Source: a virus | IMG/VR virus record: IMGVR_UViG_3300034284_000932 | Span: 1-25,482 of that record | Direction: 5' to 3' (one strand) | Length of the DNA stretch: 25,482 bases | In this document: positions 3,588-24,744 of the stretch, piece by piece | Position numbering within the stretch: the stretch's first letter is position 1 | How the letters are laid out: the number at the start of each line of letters is the position of its first letter | The notes under the pieces: model-generated | Seen by the model: only the letters and a program-made list of their open reading frames with translations | Databases searched by the model: none | Told to the model about the DNA's origin: nothing | Translations under genes and position numbers: made by a program

Positions 3588-5696
3588 ATGACAGACATCC
3601 AAATCTGCAACCTTGCCCTCGCCCGCCTCGGAGATTCGCGCATCGCCAATCTCAATGACGCGACCGCGCAAGCGCAGTATTGCAATCTGTTCTACACGCA
3701 GACGGTCGAGGAACTCCAAGCGGAGTTCGATTGGCAATTCTGCCGCAAGCAGGTCAACCTCACCAGCGGCACGGCCCCGCTCACCGGCTATTCTATTCAA
3801 TATGCCCTTCCCGCTGATTTCATCCGGGCGATCCGTCTTGGGAGCATTGATGCCAGCGAAAATTTTGGCACTTGGGAGATAGTCGGAACCAATCTTCACA
3901 CAAACCTCTCCGCTCCGGTCGTCCTCGACTACATCGCCAATATCACGACGACCACCTCGTTCCCAGCCATCTTCGTCGAGGCGCTCTCGATGAAGCTCGC
4001 AGCCGTCCTTGCGATGCCTCTTACCGGAAGCAAGGACTTGTTCACCCAACTCGCCGAGGTCTACGGCGCGACATTGCAAAAGCCTGCGTTCCTCCACGCC
4101 ACCGAGCGGGTCGGAAGGCAACGCGCCACTAACTCCATCGCCACGCAGGCCGACATCGTCCGGCTCGCGATCCTCAAGACCGGCACCGCCGATGGCTACA
4201 AGCCCAACGGACAAGCCGCGATGCTGGGCAATTCGTTTTTCGATCAAGCCCGCAACGAACTTCTTTCGGAGTTCGATTGGTCGTTCGCCCGCACCTCGGC
4301 CTCGATCACCGCCGATGCAGCAAACCCCGTCACCGGCTACGCCAGACGCTATGCCCTGCCCGCCGGGGCGCTCACCGTGCTTCGGGTCAACGAGGTCGAT
4401 GCCAGTGAGAATTTCTCGGTCTGGGAGGTGGCCGGGGGATTCATCCACACCGAAGCCGCCTCGCCGATCCTTGCGGAGTTCACCTCGACCGTTACCGACA
4501 TCACCAAGTTCCCCGCGATCTTCATCGACCTTCTTGTCAACAAGATCGCCATGCGCCTCGCCATGACAACCGGCGATGCGGGCCGCATGGAGATTCTGGC
4601 CAAGGAAACCGAATTCATTTTCCAAAAGCCCGGCTTTTCAAAAGCGATTGAGAAAATTGCCCCAATCCGGCCTTCGGCCACATTGAGCGCCACGGAAATC
4701 TGCAAGCAGGCCGTCATGCGTCTTGGAACCACGGACACGCTCAGTCAGACCGGCGGACACCCGGCCTTGTTCGCCCATTCCTTCTACGACCACGCCTTGG
4801 AGGAGCTTCTCGCCGACCTTCCGTGGGCTTTTGCCAAGAAGCAGGTCAGCATCACGGCCAACGCCACCCCTCCAACCCAAGGCTACGCGAAACGCTACGC
4901 TCTCCCATCGGATTTCCTGCAACTGATCCGAGTCAACCAAATCGATACGAGCGAGAATTTCGGCCAATGGGAGATCGTTGGCGGGTTTATTCACACCGAC
5001 CTCGGTTCGCCGATCATCATCGACTACACGGCCAACATCACCGATGTGGCGCAGTTCCCGGCTCCTTTCGTTGAGGCGCTCATCGCTCGCATCGCAGCCA
5101 AGATCGCGCTCCCACTCACGGCCAAGCCCGACATCGCCACCGCGCTCGCTCAAGCCGCAGCGGAAACACTCACCCGCCCGACTATTCAAATCCTCGTCGA
5201 GAAATCCGCGAAACCCCGCGCTGGGTCTGCCGCCAACTCGGTCTTCGAAATCTGCCGCCTAGCCATCCTCAAGGTGGGCAGCGCCGAAGCCTTCAAACCC
5301 TACGGGGAGCCGATGGCCATCGCGCAGTCCCTCTTCGACCAGACCCGTAACGAACTCCTCGCCGACTTCGATTGGCAGTTCGCTCGCGTCCAATCCTCCC
5401 TCACCGCAGATGGGACGCCTCCCGCCTTCGGCTACACGACCCGCTACGCCCTGCCCAGCGCCACCCTCAAAGTGCTTCGCGTCAATGGGGTGGACGAAGA
5501 CGAGAACTTCGGAAACTGGGAAATCGTCGGTGGGTTCTTGCACACGAATTTCACTTCCCCGGTCCGCATCGAGACGACCGCCATCGTGTCCGACGCCACC
5601 AAATTCCCGCCGGTCTTCGTGAATATGCTCACGGTCACCCTCGCGATGAAACTTTCCCAACTCATGGATTTCCAAGCCGCCCCAGCCGCCCGCTAA
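3588..5696 (+). CDS. Tail adaptor: four tandem gp11-like (tail tubular protein A) repeats
   Basis: This 702-residue protein is built from repeats of about 180 residues, beginning near residues 1, 187, 369 and 551. Each has an [I/V]C..A[I/L]...G start, a central E[L/F]...FDW.FA.....[I/L]T stretch, [R/Q]YALP...L..[I/L]R...[I/V]D.SENF..WE[I/V]...HT...SP, and an FP..F[V/I]..L..K.A..LA C-terminal helix. This resembles the T7 tail tubular protein A family, normally one ~200-residue domain that forms a dodecameric ring under the portal. The fourth repeat is cut by TAA at 5694-5696; its missing end is the first ~30 residues of the next ORF, in the same frame. Start ATG 3588 lacks a Shine-Dalgarno and lies 19 bases after the terminator. 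The family call is good; the stoichiometry is unknown. Confidence 0.82.
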   Translation: MTDIQICNLALARLGDSRIANLNDATAQAQYCNLFYTQTVEELQAEFDWQFCRKQVNLTSGTAPLTGYSIQYALPADFIRAIRLGSIDASENFGTWEIVGTNLHTNLSAPVVLDYIANITTTTSFPAIFVEALSMKLAAVLAMPLTGSKDLFTQLAEVYGATLQKPAFLHATERVGRQRATNSIATQADIVRLAILKTGTADGYKPNGQAAMLGNSFFDQARNELLSEFDWSFARTSASITADAANPVTGYARRYALPAGALTVLRVNEVDASENFSVWEVAGGFIHTEAASPILAEFTSTVTDITKFPAIFIDLLVNKIAMRLAMTTGDAGRMEILAKETEFIFQKPGFSKAIEKIAPIRPSATLSATEICKQAVMRLGTTDTLSQTGGHPALFAHSFYDHALEELLADLPWAFAKKQVSITANATPPTQGYAKRYALPSDFLQLIRVNQIDTSENFGQWEIVGGFIHTDLGSPIIIDYTANITDVAQFPAPFVEALIARIAAKIALPLTAKPDIATALAQAAAETLTRPTIQILVEKSAKPRAGSAANSVFEICRLAILKVGSAEAFKPYGEPMAIAQSLFDQTRNELLADFDWQFARVQSSLTADGTPPAFGYTTRYALPSATLKVLRVNGVDEDENFGNWEIVGGFLHTNFTSPVRIETTAIVSDATKFPPVFVNMLTVTLAMKLSQLMDFQAAPAAR

Positions 5697-7457
5697 ATGA
5701 AGACCGAGGAACTTTTCAAAGAACTCCAGTTCCTCGCCGGGAAGCCCGCATTGAAAAATGCGGTCGAAACCCGAGCCTCCTCGCGTCCCTCCTCCGCGCT
5801 CACCGAGGACGAACTCTGCCGCCAAGCGATCTTGCGGGTCGGCACCGCCGAGCAGTTCGGCCCCTCCTCGCAGGCGATGCTCCTTGCCAAGTCGCTCTAC
5901 CCGCAGGTTCGCGATGCGCTACTCCTCGCCGGATCGTGGACATGGGCCATGAAGTCCACCACGGTCATCGAGGCGCTCCCGCGCCCGGAATACAAGTGGG
6001 CCTACCGCTACGCGATCCCCGCCGACTGCCTGCGCGTCTTCCGGGTCAACGACTACGACTACTCGACCGGCGATTCGGCATGGGAAGTCGCTGGGAATTT
6101 CGTCCTCACCAATGCCGATTCCGGCTCGCCTGCATGGGTCACCGGTCGCACCTACGAGGTCGGCAATGCCGTCTCCAACAACGGCGCGGTCTACCGCTGC
6201 CTGGTTGCCGGTTCGACCAAGCAACCCGGCGTGTCCGCCAGTTGGACGACCGATTGGGATGTCTGGCTCGGATCGGCGATCACGCTGGAATATGTCCGCA
6301 AGGTCACCGATGTCACCCTCTTCGATTCCCTCTTCATCGACCTGCTCACGGTCTCCCTCGCCGCCAAGCTCGCCGTCCCGCTGACCGGCGATGCCAACAA
6401 GGCCGCACTCCTCGCCAAGGAAACCGAAATCCTCGGCAAAAACCCCGCCATGCGCCGGGACTCCACCGAGCGCAAGGGCCGCATCAAGCCTGCATGGCAG
6501 TCCTCCAAACTCGTCTCCTCTCGCAACGGCGGCGATGGCATTGATGGCTCGCAAGCCACTGCGGGCGGACCAGCAGGCGGCGTCAGCTACCCCTCGCTCC
6601 TCGTCACCGTAGGAACGGTCTCCAACCTCCCCACTGGCGCTACTCCCACCGTCACCAATACCGGCACAAACGACACCGCCGTTCTCAATTTCGGTCTGCC
6701 ACAAGGCCCAGCCGGAACGGTCAATGTGGGCACGACCACCACCGGGGCCGCAGGGACCAATGCCAGCGTTGCCGCCACCGGAACTCCAGAGAATAGGGTT
6801 CTCAGCTTTACCATCCCCAGAGGCGACCAAGGCGTGCAGGGTATCCAAGGATTCAAAGGCGACACCGGAAACACCGGCCCAGCGAACGCTCTGTCTATCG
6901 GCACGGTCACCGCTGGTCCGACCGCTGCGGCCACGATCACCGGCACAGCCCCGAACCAGACGCTCAACCTCACGCTTCAGCAGTCCGCGCTCCTCTCCAG
7001 CGCCAAGACCACCCTTACCGGCAACGGCACGCTCAAAACCTTCACGGTCTCCGGCCTCAAGTCCAGCGACCCGAACCATGTCATGGTCGCCATCAATGGG
7101 GTCGCGCAGGAACCCACCACCGACTACCTTGTCAACCAGGGAAGCGGCACGATCACCTTCACGCAATCGATCCCCAATGGCGCGAAGATCGTCGTCATCG
7201 CCCTCGGCCTCTACTCGCCCGCCACCCAGCGCGACCCGGACAACTCCATCCACGCCTTCGCGCTCAACGCCGCAGGAACCTTTTCCTACTACGGCCTGCT
7301 GCTCAACTCCGACATTCCCGCCACCGGCTCCCCCGCCGACGTGGCCAAATGGTCGATCACCCGCTCCGCGCTCACCACCGCCGGAGCCGTCACCACCACC
7401 GCCAAGGCGACCAATGTCGCGTGGACCAACCGGGAGACCGCCGCCTACGCATCATGA
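5697..7457 (+). CDS. Tail adaptor continuation fused to a collagen-like fibre region
   Basis: The 586-residue ORF begins with ATG directly after the TAA of the previous gene and in the same frame. Residues 1-26 complete the fourth gp11-like repeat of that gene. Residues ~37-275 form a fifth repeat, interrupted at ~143-193 by a Trp-rich module (W147..G150..Y153..GN.V) like carbohydrate-binding CBM5/12 domains. From ~300 the protein is Thr/Gly/Ala-rich and fibre-like. Seven collagen-type G-X-Y triplets (376-396) are followed by a beta-rich region with VMVAINGVAQEPTTDY, common in phage tail fibres. It is either an independently initiated adaptor-fibre subunit or the readthrough extension of the previous product. 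Location: virion tail. The TGA at 7455-7457 overlaps the next start. Confidence 0.75.
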   Translation: MKTEELFKELQFLAGKPALKNAVETRASSRPSSALTEDELCRQAILRVGTAEQFGPSSQAMLLAKSLYPQVRDALLLAGSWTWAMKSTTVIEALPRPEYKWAYRYAIPADCLRVFRVNDYDYSTGDSAWEVAGNFVLTNADSGSPAWVTGRTYEVGNAVSNNGAVYRCLVAGSTKQPGVSASWTTDWDVWLGSAITLEYVRKVTDVTLFDSLFIDLLTVSLAAKLAVPLTGDANKAALLAKETEILGKNPAMRRDSTERKGRIKPAWQSSKLVSSRNGGDGIDGSQATAGGPAGGVSYPSLLVTVGTVSNLPTGATPTVTNTGTNDTAVLNFGLPQGPAGTVNVGTTTTGAAGTNASVAATGTPENRVLSFTIPRGDQGVQGIQGFKGDTGNTGPANALSIGTVTAGPTAAATITGTAPNQTLNLTLQQSALLSSAKTTLTGNGTLKTFTVSGLKSSDPNHVMVAINGVAQEPTTDYLVNQGSGTITFTQSIPNGAKIVVIALGLYSPATQRDPDNSIHAFALNAAGTFSYYGLLLNSDIPATGSPADVAKWSITRSALTTAGAVTTTAKATNVAWTNRETAAYAS

Positions 7458-11066: not shown

Positions 11067-14000
11067 ATGCCGAAGTTCGATTTCTATCCCTCATTCAACG
11101 CCGGTGAAGTCTCGCCCTTCATCGACGCCCGGACGAGCTTGGAGAAATACCGCAGCGCCTGCCGCACGCTGGAGAACTTCCAAATCCTGCCCTACGGCGG
11201 CGTCATCCGCCGACCCGGCACGGAGTTTCGCGGCACGACCAAAAACCCCAACCTCGGCGAAGTCCGCCTCATCGGGTTCAACTTCTCGACCACCACCCGC
11301 TTCATCATCGAAATGGGTGTGGGATACATGCGCTTCTGGAGCGGGGTAACCGGTGTGCCTGTAACCGTGGCCCCACCTGCCGCATGGGAGACTGGCAGCA
11401 TTTACTTGATCGGCAACTATGTAACGAGCAGTGGCACGACCTACTACTGCACAAGCGCCCACACCTCCGACGCATTTGCGAGCGATCTCGCCGCAGGCCG
11501 ATGGGTGGCCCAGACGATTCTTGAGGTTCCCACCCCCTACACGGGCATGCACCTGCGCGAGATCCAGTTTTCACAGATCAACGACATCATGTACTTCGCG
11601 CACGCGAGCTACCCCCCCTACAAGCTCTCGCGACTTGCCGATAACAACTGGACCTTTGAGATCATTGATTGGGACTACCCTCCTCTCCAAGACCGCAACG
11701 ACACCGATGGGGTGATCAATGTGACGCAAGGGTCATCAGCGATTCCTCGGTGGGTTGCCGGGACGACATACGCAGCAGGCGAATATGTTCAACCTCCAGC
11801 ATGGACCCAAAATACGTCTTATGTCGTAGGAGACATCGTCGAAAATGCTTCTGTGGCCTACAAAGCCACAACAAGCCACACCTCCCCGGCATCGTTTGTA
11901 GCGACAAACTGGACGGCCCAAGCCGCAAGCGGGCTATTTCGCTACAAAACGCTTGTCGCTCATAAAGCAGGGACAAGGTTCGGGACTGATGCAAATGATC
12001 TTAAGTTAAGTTCGCTACCTCTCCCACTTAACCGCATGGGTCGCCATGTCATCAGCGCCCCCGCCAACACATTCAGCTCGGTTTTGGTAGGCCAAAAAAT
12101 GGAACTCAAATGGCCTACCTCCTACACAGGTTTCGGATCGAGCGGAGTTTCGGTCATCGGACAAAGTGCAGAGATATCTGTCGAAATAATACAAGATACC
12201 TCAAGCAGGCTGAGTGAAATCGAAGGTGAGTGGGACTTGATCACAAGCGGCAAATGGAATGCAACAATCCAAATCCTGCGAATAGACAGGTCTAAAACAG
12301 GCGTTGTGGTAGCCACGGCCACGCGCAGCGGAAGCACGGTCTCGGTCTACCATCCTAACCACAGGTGGAGTGATGGTGATGCCATCAGCGTTGGGTCTGA
12401 TCCGGGAATCACTGCCACGCCATACTACACACGCGAAGCCAACATCGCGGTGACAGGCACGCATACCTACACCTACACAACACCCGACGCCACCAACACG
12501 GGAACCATCGGCATTTCCCCAGTCAATCTGACCAAAGCTGAGGTGGTGGCCGAGTTCACCCGCGACACGAACTTAGCTGGAGATGCCAACATCATCTATG
12601 CTGGAACTCAGACAAGGCAGGCATCGATTATGATTCGGGTCATCAACTGGAGTGCCAGCACGAATACCCCAGCAATACCAGTCGCACGCATCCAACCACG
12701 CAAATCCGAATCTGGTGGATTCGCCACCATTCTACAGGTCTACAGCGGTTCGTCGGCACTCATTCGCGTGGATTCATATCTTGGCACAAATAGGCATCAC
12801 TTGCAGGCCAATACAAAACTCTGGTCGCTCCCGGCTTTTTTCTCTGGGAACTATCCGCGCACGGTCGCGCTCCACGAACAACGCATCTTTTGGTCTGGCA
12901 CATCTCGCGAGCCGGTCACCCTATGGGGAAGCGAAATCGATAATTTCGAGAACTTCAAGATTGGCGCAAATGCAAGCGACTCAGTGAAGATCACCTTGGC
13001 GGCGTCCGAGGGCAATCGAATCAACTGGCTATATTCTCAACAAAATTCGCTTCTCGTTGGAACAAGCGGCGACGAGTGGGCCGTCAGCGCAGCCGATTCT
13101 GCGTCCACCCTTTCGGCAACCAACCTTGAGGCCAAGCGGCAATCAGCCTACGGCGGGAAATACCTTCGCGCCGTCATCGTCAACGATGTCCTGCTTTTTG
13201 TTCAGCGCAACGGGCGCAAACTCCGTGAACTCGTCTACGAACTCAACAAGGACGGATGGGTCGCGCCGGATTTGACCCTTCTTGCCGAACACATCACCAA
13301 CGGAGAGATCATGGAGCTTGCATACCAGCAGCAACCCGATGCCGTGTTGTGGTGCGTACGCGGCGATGGCACGCTCATTGGCATGACCTATGAGCGCGAC
13401 CAGAAGGTTGTCGGCTGGCATCGCCACACCATCGCCGACAATGCCGATGTCGAATCGGTCGCCACCATCTACGGCAACGGAACGGAGGACGAGGTCTGGA
13501 TGGTCGTCAAGCGCACCGTCTCCGGGCAAGACTACCGCACCATCGAGCGGTTCCCGCTCCTCTGGCGCAAATACCTCGATGACCAGACCGCCAACTCATG
13601 GCGTTACCTCGATGGATGGTCCGCCTTTGCCTCCGGCGCAGCAGGCCGCTCAATCTCCGGCCTCGACCGCTTCAATGGCAAGACGGTCACCGTCATGCAG
13701 GAGGGCCAAGCTCCCATCACCCGCACGGTCGCCAGCGGAGCGATCACCGTTCCCACCGCAGCCGCAGGCTATGTCGGCCTGCCCTACACATCGACCCTCA
13801 CGCCCATGAAGCTCGACATGGACTTGGAGGACGGCTCATCCCAAGGCCGCAAGAAGCGCATCCACAAAATCATCGCCCGACTTTACAAGAGTAGGGGAGG
13901 GGAGGTCCGCACTAACAACGGCGAGTGGTATGCCCTCGCCGACACGCTCTCCACCGGCGACCAAAAAATGATCTTGGCCGGTGCGTTTGGAATCGACGCA

Positions 14001-14084
14001 GATGTCACTCTGAGGCAAACTGCTCCTTATCCAATGGCCGTCATCGCCCTTCAACCTGTGTGGGATACTTTCGGTAATGAATAA
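11067..14084 (+). CDS. Tail nozzle protein (tail tubular protein B-like)
   Basis: This 1005-residue protein begins with FYPSFNAGEVSPFIDARTSLEKYRSACRTLENFQILPYGGVIRRPGTEF, a hallmark of podovirus tail nozzle proteins (T7 gp12 type), which form the hexameric tube through which DNA leaves. The C-terminal half carries further family-like patterns (TVALHEQRIFWSGTSREP, RNGRKLRELVYEL, ITNGEIMELAYQQQP). T7 gp12 is about 790 residues; the excess is explained by insertions. A Trp-rich CBM-like module lies at ~106-146 (AWETG...YLIGNYV). Two more are in tandem at ~226-283 (RWVAGTTYAAGEYV, then SYVVGDIV). A beta-rich segment follows to about residue 590 and is AT-richer than the flanks in places. The stop overlaps the next gene by eight bases. 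Confidence 0.88.
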   Translation: MPKFDFYPSFNAGEVSPFIDARTSLEKYRSACRTLENFQILPYGGVIRRPGTEFRGTTKNPNLGEVRLIGFNFSTTTRFIIEMGVGYMRFWSGVTGVPVTVAPPAAWETGSIYLIGNYVTSSGTTYYCTSAHTSDAFASDLAAGRWVAQTILEVPTPYTGMHLREIQFSQINDIMYFAHASYPPYKLSRLADNNWTFEIIDWDYPPLQDRNDTDGVINVTQGSSAIPRWVAGTTYAAGEYVQPPAWTQNTSYVVGDIVENASVAYKATTSHTSPASFVATNWTAQAASGLFRYKTLVAHKAGTRFGTDANDLKLSSLPLPLNRMGRHVISAPANTFSSVLVGQKMELKWPTSYTGFGSSGVSVIGQSAEISVEIIQDTSSRLSEIEGEWDLITSGKWNATIQILRIDRSKTGVVVATATRSGSTVSVYHPNHRWSDGDAISVGSDPGITATPYYTREANIAVTGTHTYTYTTPDATNTGTIGISPVNLTKAEVVAEFTRDTNLAGDANIIYAGTQTRQASIMIRVINWSASTNTPAIPVARIQPRKSESGGFATILQVYSGSSALIRVDSYLGTNRHHLQANTKLWSLPAFFSGNYPRTVALHEQRIFWSGTSREPVTLWGSEIDNFENFKIGANASDSVKITLAASEGNRINWLYSQQNSLLVGTSGDEWAVSAADSASTLSATNLEAKRQSAYGGKYLRAVIVNDVLLFVQRNGRKLRELVYELNKDGWVAPDLTLLAEHITNGEIMELAYQQQPDAVLWCVRGDGTLIGMTYERDQKVVGWHRHTIADNADVESVATIYGNGTEDEVWMVVKRTVSGQDYRTIERFPLLWRKYLDDQTANSWRYLDGWSAFASGAAGRSISGLDRFNGKTVTVMQEGQAPITRTVASGAITVPTAAAGYVGLPYTSTLTPMKLDMDLEDGSSQGRKKRIHKIIARLYKSRGGEVRTNNGEWYALADTLSTGDQKMILAGAFGIDADVTLRQTAPYPMAVIALQPVWDTFGNE

Positions 14085-17574: not shown

Positions 17575-20500
17575 ATGACTGATCTCATCGACGACGCAAC
17601 AGCAGATTTATACCTCACAGAAATAGACAAGGTTACTGGTGATGACCGTCTGAAAATGGCGAATGCTTTAGAAAAATACGCCGATAGCCTTGCTGAAAAA
17701 AGACGCCAACAGACCGACGAACACTTTTCCAAACTATTCACTGACGAAGCCTATTTCGAGCAACAGAAGGCGGCTAACACTGCCGTGCAGGAATCCATCG
17801 ACCCCGACCAAACGGCAAAAAGCGCAGCCATTGGCGCATGGCTGGAGCATCACAACGGCAGGCCCATCGACCCCATGTCCTACCAAGTCGAGCGCGATGC
17901 CTTTGCGATGGCAAACTACGGGAAGAAAAACCTCGATGACAATCAACTCTTCGATTTCATCCGTGGTGAATACGATTGGCAGAAACAACGCACAGAGGCC
18001 ATCAACGACCTCCAGATGCAGGCCGTGGGCAAAGCAATCACCGACTCCCAACTCGGCCAGAATCGTCCTTTCGTGGACGGCATGACCGAGGTCTTCAACC
18101 AGTGGCAGCAAAAATACCCGGAGCTGGTGGACGGCAAAAATGACGCCGCCTTCCTCTCGCAGGGCTACAAGCTCTACTACGACACGATCAACGACCTCGA
18201 CACCGTTCGCCCGCAGGCATCCAAGGCGCTCTCCACGCTCACCTCGTTCACCCAAGGCAACGCCACCGACGAGGAGATGCAAAGCCTCGCCAATGATTTC
18301 GTCGGCGCTCCACCCGAAGACCGCCAGAAAATCTACAAATATGTGACCCTCGCCGCGCAGGCCGGTCAGATCGACCGCGCCGGGATCGAGCAGTTTGCCA
18401 TCAACATGGGGCAAGCCTTCACCCGTGGGTTCGATTTCGTTCCGCAGGGAACGCTCCAGATGCAGGAGGCAGGCGTTAATAACTGGCTGGAGTCCATCCG
18501 CAACGGAACGCAAATCTGGGTTCCCGCCGATGGCGACCTCACCAAGGCCGTGGTCGGCAACGCTCCCGCCGGAGCCGAGTCCGATGCGTGGCGGCAGGCC
18601 ACCGTGCCGGAGGCAGAGACACTCATCCAGAGTGGCCAGAATGTGCGCGAGTCCTTCAAGGTCGTGCGCGAACTCCGCAATGTCGCCAAGACCGGCGTCG
18701 ATCCCATCCGCCCCGTGCTGGAGGAGAACTCCTTCTGGGGAACCGCCGAGCGTGGAGCCTACGGTTTGTCTGGCAGCATCCCGCTCATGGGCGCGACTGC
18801 CGTCAATCCCTTCCTCGGCGTCCTCGCCTACCAATCCACGGAATACGACCGCATCATGCTGGAGAACCCGGACATCAATCCGCAGTTCGCCCAAGGTCTC
18901 GCCCTGGTGGAAGGCGCGGCCAATGCCGCCATCGACCGGGTCCAGTTGAGCAGCATCTCCGGGCGACTCCCCATGTTTGGCCGCTACCTCGACCGCATCG
19001 CCAGCGATGGAGTCCGCCGCACCGTCAAGATCGGGGCCAATGTCGTGGAGCAGAACTTGCAGGAAGGCGCTCAAGACCTCATCGCCCCTGTGCTGGAGAC
19101 CGCAGTCGCAAGCCTCCGCGAGGACATGCCCGACAAGGATTTCACGAAGCTCATGGACGACTGGTCTGGCCAGCGGGCTGAGACCTTCTTCGCCACCCTT
19201 CCGCTCGCCCTCATCGGTGGCGGCGTAGCCACATATCGCGACATCAAGAATCCATCTGCCGAACTCAACGCCACAAAGCTCCGCATGGCAGGATTCGGGC
19301 AGGATCAAGTCACCTTCATCCAGCGAGCCGAGAATCCGGAGGAATACGATGCCCGCATCAAGATGGAATGGGAAAAGCGCACGCCGGAGAACATCAAGGC
19401 CGGTGAGCAGGAAGTCCTCAACACCATCGAAAAAGCACGCACTCCCGGAGAACTCGACGCCCGCATGCAGCGAGTCACCGCGCCCGATGGGTCCGAGGAC
19501 ATCGTCGTCACCTCACCCGATGGTAAGGAACTCCTCCGCACCAAGAGTGAGCAGGCCGCGCTGGAGGCTGTGCGTCAGCACAACGAGGCGCAACTCATCA
19601 ACGAGCGCAATGCTGTCTCCGACATGGTGGACTACTTTCGCGCCCAAGACCCCGCCAATGTTGCCACCATCGAAGCGCCTCGCACCGTCCAGCAAGAACT
19701 CGACCGGCTGACAGAGGCTGGTGATTCCAAAGGCATCGCCAATCTCAACGAGCGCATCCGGTTCGCAGGCATCCCCGAAGGGTCCGACCTAACCACCTAC
19801 AACATCCTCGGCGAGGCCAATGTCGAGACGACCGCCGAAGGCGTCTTCCGTGGCGTCATCAAGCTCCGCGAGAATTCCCGCCCGGAGGATGCCTTTGAGG
19901 AGATCAACCATGTCTTCGTCCGCAAGGCGCTCGCCGAGGGCCGCACCGATCTGGATTCCCTGCGCGGGTGGCTCAACCAAACCAGCGAGGCAACCGGCGA
20001 AATCTACGCCACCGAGACCGAAACCGACATCATCGAGAACATCGCCAAGGTCGGCATGGACTACGCCGCAGGCCGCATCGAGGAGACATCCCTTCCGGCC
20101 TCCTTCGTCGACTACATCAAGCGCATGCTCCAAGTCTTCAAAGAGACCATGGCCCGCGCCATCAAGCTCAAGGACGCTTTCGCCACCGGCAAGATCGACT
20201 CCAACTTTGAAACCCTCCTCGCCGACTCGGTCGGCCTCAACCAGCAGGCGCGTGTCGATACCGCCAGCAACAGGGTCATAGGGGAACTGACTCAAGGGCT
20301 TTTCAATTACTCGATTGGTCAGCAGGTTTCGACTGATACTAATTTTAGTATTGGCAACCCGGCAAAAGTCGATGAGAACGGAATCCATTCGTTTGCCAAA
20401 CCACGGCCATCGACCTACGCTACACCCAATGAATCGCAATTTGACCCATCGGCCATCCTCGAAACTCTCGTTCGAGGAAAGACTGGCGCAAATTCAAAGA

Positions 20501-23500
20501 AGCGCCGGAAACATGGGCGAACTCTCGCCAGCTTTTCCGAAATCGTGGATTGGGCAGAAAGCCAAGGCCGAACCATTGATCCTTCGATTTTTGCCGAAAG
20601 AAAAGAACTTGGATCCGGCGGGGAACATTTAGTTTTTCAAGCAGAAGAGGGGCGGGTCTACAAACTCACGAAGCCCGGTCTTTTCGGAATTCAAGCCGAT
20701 GATGCAGGGGCTTACCTGCAACGCTGGGCGCTTGCAAACCGCCTTTTCAATGATGATGCTCGTATCGAAGGCATCGTTAAGCTGACAGGAGAATCCGACT
20801 ATCGCACCGTCGTTTCCCACCGCCACATTGACGGCAGAGACTCGACCCAAGCAGAAATTAAGGACTACCTCCAAAGCCATGGCTTTGTGCAAGTCGAGTC
20901 CCAATGGATTCACCCGACACTTGGAATCGCGGCACTTGATGCTGACACTGCTGGCAACTCGATCACCATGCCGGATGGCACAGTGGCCCCGGTCGATCTC
21001 AACCTCCAACCCGCAAGCCCGCAATACCTCCAGCAGGCCCGTGAACAATCCGGCCTCGGAGGTGTGAGCAACTTTTCCATCGGCATCGCTCCAAATGGAA
21101 CTCCCAGCAACCTCAAGCCAGAGGAGCAGGCGTTGGCAAAATCGCCGGAATTCAAGCAATGGGGTGGGAATTGGGAAGCTTTGAGCCACAAACAATTTTT
21201 AAACGGTGACCCTGTTTCTATCCTTGCTGGAGGAGAGTTTAAAAAAATTGATGGGCAATCACTAATTGACCGAGTGGCAAGCTGGTTTGCATCAAAGCAT
21301 CAAAACAAAGCTATTAACTCTGTGGTTGGGGAGGTGGCTTTAACCAAGAATGGCGTTTCAGACTCTCTTGCCCATGGAATCGGACGAGACAAAGCAGATG
21401 CATTTGCAGCTGTCCCCGAAGTAATTTCAAAAGGTCGCGTTGTTGATTATCAAAAAAACTGGAAAGGCAGAGGCTATGATAGCGTGACTTTAGCGGCTCC
21501 CATTCAAATAGCCGGAAAAGATTTTATAGCAGTTGCTATTGTTATTCGCGAGCAAAGCAAACAGAGATTCTACCTGCATGAGGTAGGATTGAGAGAAAGG
21601 CTCCAGCAAAGCGATGCGTTCAAGTCCGGTGCCAGTGCCGAAGAACAAGCTTCGGTTGAGCCTTCCGGCGCACGCTCTGAAGGAGCCATAAAGAACCTAC
21701 TTCGTGGCATTTTTTCAGTCAACCCCGAATCCGTAACCGTCAAAACCGACGAGAACGGCGAACCGCTTGCTTCAGAGATCGCACGCTTCCGGCAGGAGAC
21801 CGGAACCTCCAACTACTCCATCGCCAGCCAGTCCGAGATCGACCGGGTGAACCGCGCCCTCGGTGGCATGAACCGAGGGCCAGACGCCCGGCTGGCAGTC
21901 TACGAGCGGGCCAAGGCAAAGCTGATCGGCCTCATGCAAAGCAACCAGGCTTCGCTGGACGATTTGAAAAAAGGCACCGTGTCGTTCCGCCGCACGCAAA
22001 TCCTGCAAGCCCTCGGAGAACTCGACGCCATCCTCTCAATCTTCCCGCCAGATTTGCGCGGCAGGGTGGGGGGCTACACCAAGCTCGCCAGCATCGCACC
22101 GCACGATGTCTTCAAGGATGGCGAGAAGGTCAGCGAGGTCAGCGGCATGAACGGCGCGATCATCAGCGCATGGATGCGCGAAGGCCAAAACATCGGGCAG
22201 GCAGGTCAGCAAACCGAACTCCCGCCCGGCTACACAGCCAAAGAAAACCTCGGCACCGCCCGCGCAGACCGTGCCATATCAGACTTCTTCAAAAAGCGAA
22301 TCGAGATGATCGACCGTGAATTGGAGAAGACCCTCCGTCGCGAATACGACGAAGCCTTCCGAAAGCTTCTCGACCGAACCAAACCCAAGAAAGCCGCACC
22401 GGGAGAGAAGCCGAAGGGCATCGGCGGCGACATCCAAGACCTGTTCGCCGTGGTGCGGGATTCGGTGGACATGAACGCCACGCAAGTTGCCGCACACATC
22501 GCTGGGTTGGATTCCATGATCGCATCCGGGGAACTCACCGCCGAGCAGGAGGCGAGGGAGCAGATCGAAGCCGCGCTGGTGGCACTCACGGGAGATTGGA
22601 AAAACGCCGACTCAGATCGCCGCCGCACTGCGCTCACTGAGGCGACCCGCATCTGGAGCGGTGCCTATGCTGCACACACGCAAAAAGTGATCCGGCAGCG
22701 TGAGGAGCGTGAGATCGCAAGGGCCGAGTCCATCATAGCCACCGGCAAGGATGGTGATATGCCTGGCCGAGCATCCAAAGCCATTTCCGATTCCGGACTC
22801 AAAGGCACTTGGAAGGACTACATTCTCAACCTTCTTAATTTCGACCAAGTAGTCGGCGTGCTATTCGGAGAAAATACTGAATTCTCCAACACGATCATCG
22901 ACAAGCAACGCCTTGCCGAAAACGCCAAAGAGGACGGGTCGCAAACCAAAATGCAGGGTCTGGAAGATTTCTTCAGCGGCCTCGCGGGCGGCAACCTACT
23001 CGCCGGAGAGCGCCTGCGCTACCAACTCACGCAGCCCATCATGACGGTGAACGACATTCAAATGTCGCAGCTTGAAGGACTCTCAGCCGTCATGATGTGG
23101 GCGCAGGAAGACGGTCGTCGGCACATGGAAGGCGAGCGAGACGAAAATGGCAGACCCTCCGGGAAATGGAACTACGACCAAGCATTTGTTGACGAGATAA
23201 CGACCAATCTTTCCGCCGAGGCGCTGGCTCTCCGCGATTGGCTCTCCAAGCAGTATGCCGCCGAATACGCCAACATCAATGCGGTCTACTCTGAACTCAA
23301 TGGAGTCAACCTCCCGCAAATCCAAAACTACTCGCCAGTCACCGTGCAGCCGGTCAACGCACCAGCGGGGCAAGTCCTCGATCCTGTCAGCGGATCAGCC
23401 ATGTCCGGAGCCAGCACAAGTCCCGGCGCTCTCCGCACCCGTGGCACCTCCATCGCAGAACCTCGGTTCCAAGATGCCCTGCAAACCTACATCGCCCACA

Positions 23501-24744
23501 CGCTCCAGATGGAACACTGGAAAGCCTTCGCGCCAATGCTCTCGGAGGTCAACGGCATCCTGCGGAATCGCGATGTGCAAAACTCTGTGCAAGAAAAAGG
23601 CGGGGCCGAAGCAAGGAAGGTGCTCAACTTATGGCTCGACTATTTCGGCCAAGGCGGAAACCGCGATGCCGGGGCGCATCTGGCGCTTAACCAAGGGCTG
23701 AACAATGTCCTCGGTCGTGCTTCGCAGGTGGCGCTTGTGGGTCGAATTTCCACCCTCCTCATTCAGTCCACACAACTTGGTGCAGCCCTCGCCGAGGTGC
23801 CTGTGGGACCATATCTCAAACGCATGGGCAAACTGCTCTCCGGGCAACTCAGTTGGGACGCCGCGATCAATAGCGACTACATCCAGCGCCGGATTAAACA
23901 AATGCCACCAGTTGTCCAAATGGCGATGCAAGGACTCAAAGGCGCAAAGCCCACAGCCATTCAACAAGCTGGGAAACGCCTTGGAATGTTGCTCTCCGGC
24001 GCTGACGGCCTTTTCACAGCAGGCACCTACGCAATCGTCTACGACTGGCATCTCTCCAAAGCCAAGGAACTCGGCCTTGCCGGACAACAAGCTGAAGACT
24101 ACGCCCGGAACACTGCGGAAAGAGCTACCGACCGCATCGCTCAACCAACCCGCGCAGGCGCTCGATCCCTCTACGAAAACACCCAGACAGACCCGCTGGC
24201 CCGTGCTGGATGGGCGTTTGCCTCCGAGGCCCGGAAGAACCTTGCATTGGTTGCGTATTCGTTCGCCGAGCGAGACACAGCCACAAAACTTCGGACCATA
24301 GCCTATGTGCTTGCATTGAATGCCATCGGCTCTCAAATCCTGCGATCCATTTGGCGCGACACTCAAGACGACGATGACGAGGAACTTTTCGATGAGAAAT
24401 ATTGGAATCCCAAACGCTTCTTGATGGCTGCGGCAACCGAGCCGCTCTACGGAATACCAGTCTTCGGGTCGATGTTGGAAGAAGCCGTCTACAAATCGGC
24501 AGGCGAATACAACCCACAGACATCGTTATTTTCCGTTGCCTCCGCAGTTGGCCCAATTAAACGACTGCCGGATCACTTGTCCGGCGACACCGAAATGCGC
24601 GATGTTTTCAGTGACATCGACAAAATCATTTCCTCGCTCGGCGTCATGCACTCAAACATCGCAGCCACCGCATCAATCACGCATCTCGCCAAAGACCTGT
24701 TTGGCCTCGCCGATTCTGCCGTGGACGCCACCACCGAAGATTGA
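17575..24744 (+). CDS. Giant polyvalent internal virion protein (gp16 position) with kinase-like cassette
   Basis: This 2389-residue protein is the largest in the window. Residues 1-~700 are mainly helical, with hydrophobic stretches near 397-420 and 540-552. Residues ~745-900 resemble a phage zincin metallopeptidase domain, but the expected HExxH reads EEINH (775-779). Residues ~985-1150 fit the protein kinase domain of polyvalent proteins: Gly-rich GSGGEHLVF (1013-1021), Lys1030, ALDADTAGN (1121-1128) and PVDLNL with Asp1141. Residues ~1180-1400 form a second polyvalent-associated domain (GEVALTKNGVSDSLAHG, KADAFAAVPEVI 1273-1284). N-[FY]-S-I peptides bound these cassettes. The rest is long and helical, with LYENTQTDPLARAGWAF (to ~2214) and a membrane-like helix (~2242-2260). 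It is probably ejected with the DNA, delivering its domains to the host; that role is inferred. Confidence 0.78.
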   Translation: MTDLIDDATADLYLTEIDKVTGDDRLKMANALEKYADSLAEKRRQQTDEHFSKLFTDEAYFEQQKAANTAVQESIDPDQTAKSAAIGAWLEHHNGRPIDPMSYQVERDAFAMANYGKKNLDDNQLFDFIRGEYDWQKQRTEAINDLQMQAVGKAITDSQLGQNRPFVDGMTEVFNQWQQKYPELVDGKNDAAFLSQGYKLYYDTINDLDTVRPQASKALSTLTSFTQGNATDEEMQSLANDFVGAPPEDRQKIYKYVTLAAQAGQIDRAGIEQFAINMGQAFTRGFDFVPQGTLQMQEAGVNNWLESIRNGTQIWVPADGDLTKAVVGNAPAGAESDAWRQATVPEAETLIQSGQNVRESFKVVRELRNVAKTGVDPIRPVLEENSFWGTAERGAYGLSGSIPLMGATAVNPFLGVLAYQSTEYDRIMLENPDINPQFAQGLALVEGAANAAIDRVQLSSISGRLPMFGRYLDRIASDGVRRTVKIGANVVEQNLQEGAQDLIAPVLETAVASLREDMPDKDFTKLMDDWSGQRAETFFATLPLALIGGGVATYRDIKNPSAELNATKLRMAGFGQDQVTFIQRAENPEEYDARIKMEWEKRTPENIKAGEQEVLNTIEKARTPGELDARMQRVTAPDGSEDIVVTSPDGKELLRTKSEQAALEAVRQHNEAQLINERNAVSDMVDYFRAQDPANVATIEAPRTVQQELDRLTEAGDSKGIANLNERIRFAGIPEGSDLTTYNILGEANVETTAEGVFRGVIKLRENSRPEDAFEEINHVFVRKALAEGRTDLDSLRGWLNQTSEATGEIYATETETDIIENIAKVGMDYAAGRIEETSLPASFVDYIKRMLQVFKETMARAIKLKDAFATGKIDSNFETLLADSVGLNQQARVDTASNRVIGELTQGLFNYSIGQQVSTDTNFSIGNPAKVDENGIHSFAKPRPSTYATPNESQFDPSAILETLVRGKTGANSKKRRKHGRTLASFSEIVDWAESQGRTIDPSIFAERKELGSGGEHLVFQAEEGRVYKLTKPGLFGIQADDAGAYLQRWALANRLFNDDARIEGIVKLTGESDYRTVVSHRHIDGRDSTQAEIKDYLQSHGFVQVESQWIHPTLGIAALDADTAGNSITMPDGTVAPVDLNLQPASPQYLQQAREQSGLGGVSNFSIGIAPNGTPSNLKPEEQALAKSPEFKQWGGNWEALSHKQFLNGDPVSILAGGEFKKIDGQSLIDRVASWFASKHQNKAINSVVGEVALTKNGVSDSLAHGIGRDKADAFAAVPEVISKGRVVDYQKNWKGRGYDSVTLAAPIQIAGKDFIAVAIVIREQSKQRFYLHEVGLRERLQQSDAFKSGASAEEQASVEPSGARSEGAIKNLLRGIFSVNPESVTVKTDENGEPLASEIARFRQETGTSNYSIASQSEIDRVNRALGGMNRGPDARLAVYERAKAKLIGLMQSNQASLDDLKKGTVSFRRTQILQALGELDAILSIFPPDLRGRVGGYTKLASIAPHDVFKDGEKVSEVSGMNGAIISAWMREGQNIGQAGQQTELPPGYTAKENLGTARADRAISDFFKKRIEMIDRELEKTLRREYDEAFRKLLDRTKPKKAAPGEKPKGIGGDIQDLFAVVRDSVDMNATQVAAHIAGLDSMIASGELTAEQEAREQIEAALVALTGDWKNADSDRRRTALTEATRIWSGAYAAHTQKVIRQREEREIARAESIIATGKDGDMPGRASKAISDSGLKGTWKDYILNLLNFDQVVGVLFGENTEFSNTIIDKQRLAENAKEDGSQTKMQGLEDFFSGLAGGNLLAGERLRYQLTQPIMTVNDIQMSQLEGLSAVMMWAQEDGRRHMEGERDENGRPSGKWNYDQAFVDEITTNLSAEALALRDWLSKQYAAEYANINAVYSELNGVNLPQIQNYSPVTVQPVNAPAGQVLDPVSGSAMSGASTSPGALRTRGTSIAEPRFQDALQTYIAHTLQMEHWKAFAPMLSEVNGILRNRDVQNSVQEKGGAEARKVLNLWLDYFGQGGNRDAGAHLALNQGLNNVLGRASQVALVGRISTLLIQSTQLGAALAEVPVGPYLKRMGKLLSGQLSWDAAINSDYIQRRIKQMPPVVQMAMQGLKGAKPTAIQQAGKRLGMLLSGADGLFTAGTYAIVYDWHLSKAKELGLAGQQAEDYARNTAERATDRIAQPTRAGARSLYENTQTDPLARAGWAFASEARKNLALVAYSFAERDTATKLRTIAYVLALNAIGSQILRSIWRDTQDDDDEELFDEKYWNPKRFLMAAATEPLYGIPVFGSMLEEAVYKSAGEYNPQTSLFSVASAVGPIKRLPDHLSGDTEMRDVFSDIDKIISSLGVMHSNIAATASITHLAKDLFGLADSAVDATTED
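20326..20340 (+). repeat. 15-bp element copy 7 (intragenic, at kinase cassette border)
   Basis: GTTTCGACTGATACT encodes VSTDT exactly between two N-[FY]-S-I-G peptides of the giant protein. The following TAATTT (20339-20344, sharing the last T of the copy) resembles the TAATTT after copy 1 (1467-1472). This suggests that an intergenic segment was carried in with the cassette, which is inference. Confidence 0.4.

Follow-up and report, generated by a model that had tools for sequence, protein, structure and literature searches.

The question raised by this locus is why a tetrapeptide, N[FY]SI, recurs four times within a single very large protein of a short-tailed phage (a podovirus). We addressed it in the window, that is, the whole stretch of DNA analysed (25,482 nt; positions 1 to 25,482 of IMG/VR record IMGVR_UViG_3300034284_000932), and in relatives of its giant gene drawn from viral contigs. 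The giant gene (Table 1) is preceded by a phrog_418 internal virion protein gene followed by a 692-aa gene, and a portal-like end fragment, a putative scaffold gene, a capsid gene (Phage_capsid_2) and tail genes (phrog_376) lie around it. The order tail protein, phrog_418, 692-aa gene and giant gene is like that of the T7 gp14-gp15-gp16 cluster and places the giant gene in the gp16 position; judged from this position, the protein is probably delivered with the DNA. Neither its conserved N-core nor its conserved C-core matched a solved structure (PDB) by sequence, so that the likeness to gp16 is one of gene position alone, and unlike the T7-type cluster, the protein has an effector bay. It resembles the polyvalent proteins of phages and conjugative elements (PMC5512222) in being a giant phage protein with Kinase-PolyVal and LPD3 domains, both above the Pfam cut-off, and a zincin-like domain, and in that ART-PolyVal, LPD13 and other effectors occur in its relatives; it differs in that its zincin-like domain is degenerate. 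One LPD3-bearing protein, Pseudomonas phage H66 gp60, is a virion protein by mass spectrometry according to its record, and is not a core homologue of the giant protein.

Two related near-complete genomes encode a Head-tail_con portal, a terminase, a Bbp19-like protein, a RecT-like annealase and an exonuclease; the phage collection contained no isolate with a homologous C-core. Elsewhere in the window, a 702-aa open reading frame in the region 3588-7457 apparently comprises four related tail-adaptor-like units, with another in the next open reading frame; in relatives G009 and G006 this unit is a single 196-aa gene. The phrog_376 tail protein (11067-14084) contains two CBM_5_12 carbohydrate-binding stretches, and a tRNA with a CAT anticodon (2347-2417) lies between the putative scaffold and capsid genes.

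All four N[FY]SI peptides listed in a first-pass annotation of this DNA, at residues 911, 923, 1166 and 1413, were recovered; the span given there, 20299-21830, began two codons ahead of the first peptide. None of the remaining forward-strand frames of the window contains the pattern. From composition, 0.023 occurrences would be expected over the 2389 aa, against four observed (Poisson P(≥4) = 1e-8), a figure to be read knowing that the pattern was picked after inspection of the same protein; independent evidence therefore comes from the relatives. The intervals 923-1166 and 1166-1413 measure 243 and 247 residues as claimed, and the kinase-like domain and further polyvalent-associated domain proposed to lie in them are Kinase-PolyVal (PF18762, residues ~990-1122, E 8e-8 with the segment searched alone) and LPD3 (PF18798, residues 1234-1333, E 1e-9). 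Cassettes in relatives range from 29 to 736 aa, so the near-equal spacing is a coincidence. An AlphaFold2 model of residues 900-1457 (four-row alignment, mean pLDDT 39) puts the four peptides in predicted coil, and is too poor to serve as evidence.

Table 1. Features of the giant gene, in window coordinates
Feature	Position (nt)	Strand	Basis
Giant polyvalent protein, 2389 aa	17575..24744	+	Open reading frame and gene order; T7 gp16 position
Conserved N-core, residues 1-908 (part shared by relatives to about 920)	17575..20298	+	Common to relatives; almost without [FY]S[ILV]
Degenerate zincin-like metallopeptidase domain, residues ~736-885	19780..20229	+	hhalign; alignments
Short DNA-level conserved anchor before the cassette bay, residues 878-901	20206..20277	+	Nucleotide identity in relatives
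Border peptide NYSIG, residue 911	20305..20319	+	Motif search
Border peptide NFSIG, residue 923, opens the kinase cassette	20341..20355	+	Motif search
Kinase-PolyVal cassette (family F9)	20341..21069	+	PF18762; common to L004 and L020 beside other neighbours
Border peptide NFSIG, residue 1166	21070..21084	+	Motif search; L004 homology stops a few residues past it
LPD3 cassette (family F10)	21070..21810	+	PF18798
Border peptide NYSIA, residue 1413, opens the C-core	21811..21825	+	Motif; nucleotide homology to divergent relatives starts here
Conserved C-core, residues 1413-2389 (shared part from about 1410); PLxRFG-like DPLARAG at residues 2206-2212	21811..24741	+	Common to relatives

Among the relatives, the border bias is strong: the motif is dense in the middle of the protein and almost missing from the cores. 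The finding that would have told against the first-pass proposal, homologues lacking such a bias, was therefore not obtained. A first set of 30 non-redundant proteins had 0, 128 and 12 copies of [FY]S[ILV] in the N-core, middle and C-core, against 15, 20 and 18 expected; a wider set of 63 non-redundant proteins gave 0.07, 4.8 and 0.38 occurrences per 1000 residues of the N-part, middle and C-part respectively. Cutting the middle at the motif yielded 89 cassettes in 21 families (ART-PolyVal, ParB_N-like, LPD13, DUF7178, kinase and LPD3 among them), and these families recur beside different neighbours. In the middle, 56% of the starts and 62% of the ends of BLAST homology lay no more than 15 residues from a motif, compared with 16% (maximum 29%) for random motif placement. 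At the downstream side of the bay, DNA homology of several divergent relatives starts at gene nt 4235-4239, and the last motif starts at 4237; at the upstream side, the anchor before the first motif keeps mostly 90-97% nucleotide identity over 56-70 nt, although the relatives' N-core has otherwise diverged. The bay between the N- and C-cores is thus a series of exchangeable effector cassettes, with the peptide at nearly every border and homology break-points at the motif, which bears out the proposal that the peptides bound domain cassettes.

Further observations on the bay came from individual contigs. Of 17 contigs terminating within the giant gene, four (L003, L019, L025 and L037) stop ≤ 30 aa after a border, perhaps reflecting assembly forks where cassettes vary in the population. 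The LPD3-position cassettes of L053 and L024 have kept the flanks IAPNGKPSNLKPEEQAL and SVNPESVTVKTDENGEPL and exchanged the central domain, a pattern that is a second layer of swapping inside one cassette. Among the relatives we saw no convincing natural gene split at a border: the apparent cases are contig starts or L011, the giant gene of which is split (31-2463 and 2111 onward) by an apparent frameshift near the anchor, from either a sequencing error or a real break.

What has been kept at the borders is peptide, not DNA, as the first-pass annotation had argued. Codons differ among all four window copies (Ser codons TCG, AGT, TCC and TCC), AGY and TCN Ser codons are mixed among the copies in 19 of the 27 proteins with more than one, and only three of 177 within-protein copy pairs share an identical 15-mer; selection therefore acts on the peptide, and simple DNA repeats or conversion are ruled out as the cause of its conservation. 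The context profile shows a sharp five-residue island, with core-position conservation that is partly built in by the search pattern, between flanks that are poor in hydrophobic residues and rich in G/S/T/P/N/D/A, i.e. a hydrophilic linker.

The island is spelled in clade-specific dialects. NYSIG/NYSIA is found in 25 proteins; the other dialects are SFSIR/RFSIQ, NYSVR/SYSIR, TFSL (L194 and L183), [AST]FS[IV]S (L157), xFSVI (L123 and L262) and DYSIG (L191), and TFSL, YSVR, SFSIR and FSVI are homogeneous inside their proteins. We compared cassettes whose homologues, in proteins from a different C-core clade, were < 55% identical. Border words of such cassettes scored a similarity of 0.58 to other borders of their own protein, 0.44 to those of the homologous cassette elsewhere and 0.41 to unrelated borders elsewhere, with the own-protein preference holding in 40/47 proteins, counts that are not independent events since the proteins are related to one another. 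Once close homologues were admitted, the words went along with their cassette (0.59), which is what recent transfer would produce, so that dialect uniformity is partly shared exchange history. No contrast appeared in a first version of the test, in which clades were defined by the N-core; the dialect result thus depends on the choice of C-core clades and on the identity limit. Within these sequence comparisons, the motif spelling of diverged homologous cassettes follows their own protein more than the cassette.

Such peptides had also been called familiar in polyvalent proteins at large, which holds for the window's family ([FY]S[ILV] 305 versus 118 expected; [FY][ML]P 35 versus 41) and for ART C-terminal borders, where [FY]S fills the slot after the conserved C-terminus in 44/69 cases (second collection, genome contigs), and fails for H66 gp60 and Rhodobacteraceae phage MD07, both of which lack a repeated FS[ILV] word. 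Unrelated polyvalent proteins sometimes show a different word (FMP, FLP, FQP or RFS) in the same slot as their most over-represented tripeptide. One different zincin subfamily has [FY][ML]P in excess (66 versus 11.4 expected), without an excess of [FY]S[ILV]. We treat this correspondence of zincin subfamily and word as a lead, given that the groups amount to few independent lineages. A comparison of zincin subfamily with word class on single proteins had low power.

An obvious candidate for a reader of the motif is the zincin-like domain embedded upstream of the bay. Residues 736-885 align with polyvalent MPTases that carry HExxH (hhalign probability 94%, E 1e-7). Foldseek of residues 560-908 gave no significant match in the PDB and matched other uncultured phage polyvalent proteins among viral models; the zincin-like assignment thus rests on sequence profiles. 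At the HExxH position the window has EEINH (nt 19897-19911), which departs from the HExxH plus downstream Glu of an active MPTase. Among the relatives, HExxH occurs only in the distant L163 and L202 (HERTH and HEKTH), while others, such as L005 and L009, have lost the active site (RDVAQ and RDFSQ) and kept NYSIG borders. A domain that is degenerate, and further decayed where the motif is kept, is not a required reader, and we rejected cis release by this zincin as it is found today. No other intracellular protease was found among the matches listed (the best 25 of 36 Pfam families) for 40 gene products of two relatives with heuristic gene calls; the peptidase-type domains among these matches were endolysin-type M15 and CHAP, and no capsid-type protease was seen among those listed for the two related genomes.

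We consider it highly probable that these peptides are motifs under selection at cassette borders. For their use, our preferred explanation, to which as a whole mechanism we give a little less than even confidence, is that N[FY]SI[GA] is one lineage's short linear motif at effector-bay borders, that it has a lineage-matched reader, and that it is probably cut. Each phage lineage would encode, or be matched by, something that reads the border motif; this reader would most probably be a processing enzyme other than the embedded zincin as it now stands, and the effectors, once cut, would act separately after injection. Such cutting, which the first-pass annotation had raised as a possibility, would take place at the motif. 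P1 DdrB and N4 vRNAP are comparable to the giant protein in that both carry a zincin-like domain and are virion proteins that enter the cell by injection, and they differ in their fate: DdrB is processed (Iyer 2017, PMC5512222), which counts in favour of processing, whereas N4 vRNAP, likewise a polyvalent protein and one that has an MPTase, goes into the virion uncut (PMC5512222), which counts against it. Iyer et al. proposed that the zincin-like domains free polyvalent domains by autoproteolysis (PMC5512222).

The main rival, which we think rather unlikely although it has several observations on its side, is that the border peptide is an uncut docking or spacer motif. It would fit into a groove of some partner protein of the virion or of ejection, or of the degenerate zincin itself, and the cassettes would thereby be packed, unfolded or threaded in order. 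A short conserved island within a hydrophilic linker is consistent with such a role, clade-specific spelling fits a co-evolving partner, the zincin-like domain has been retained despite its lost active site, and the uncut N4 vRNAP supplies a precedent. Proteins of the RDFSQ/RDVAQ type and of the EExxH type, however, use the same NYSIG word, which makes binding to the active-site region of the zincin unlikely.

More doubtful is the explanation that the peptide is no separate signal at all and belongs to a neighbouring domain, either opening the next one as an N-terminal strand or cap or closing the one before as its C-terminal end. On its side are the ART cassettes, whose first conserved strand comes immediately after the motif (NYSIG-AFHGTPH), and the second collection, in which about 64 of 69 slots have an aromatic residue behind the conserved ART C-terminus. 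Against it, one and the same word stands before unrelated folds (kinase, ParB-like, LPD13, LPD3, ART and the C-core), and the word of a given cassette family changes from clade to clade. We find it less probable still that the motif is a relic, i.e. the site of a once active embedded zincin that persists only through exchange between phages: L163 and L202 do retain HExxH, but where the peptidase is dead the motif has stayed well defined and specific to its lineage, and a relic would be expected to decay. Least probable is a DNA-level recombination site or gene-conversion scar, conserved because exchange occurs there, a reading that draws on the clustering of homology breaks at the motif, the RecT-like annealase and exonuclease of related phages and the contigs stopping just past borders, and that the codon data have largely refuted already, with longer DNA anchors lying beside the motifs even though border exchange is real.

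Proteins of this kind were already known; a repeated border word with clade dialects we did not find described in the open literature searched or mentioned in the searched text of PMC5512222. Cassette exchange in polymorphic toxins is similar in combining a conserved carrier with exchangeable effector domains, an analogy that Iyer et al. drew for kinase loci (PMC5512222); unlike in polymorphic toxins, several cassettes here stand in series, with a short peptide at each border, in a virion-type protein.

Returning to the lineage-matched reader, we tentatively extend it to a general scheme, a possibility that we hold with still less assurance than the mechanism proposed for this family: giant phage polyvalent proteins may be modular polyproteins whose lineage-specific border words are read by a factor, from phage or host, that evolves alongside them and separates the injected effectors, and incoming cassettes would have to gain the local word in order to work. 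From the first description of polyvalent proteins onward, their cutting, its sites and its agent have been matters of proposal, and the border word offers a concrete, mutable site and a handle for a search for the reader. It also lets giant phage proteins be parsed into effector units from sequence alone, and it marks the effector bay as a site of rapid cassette exchange.
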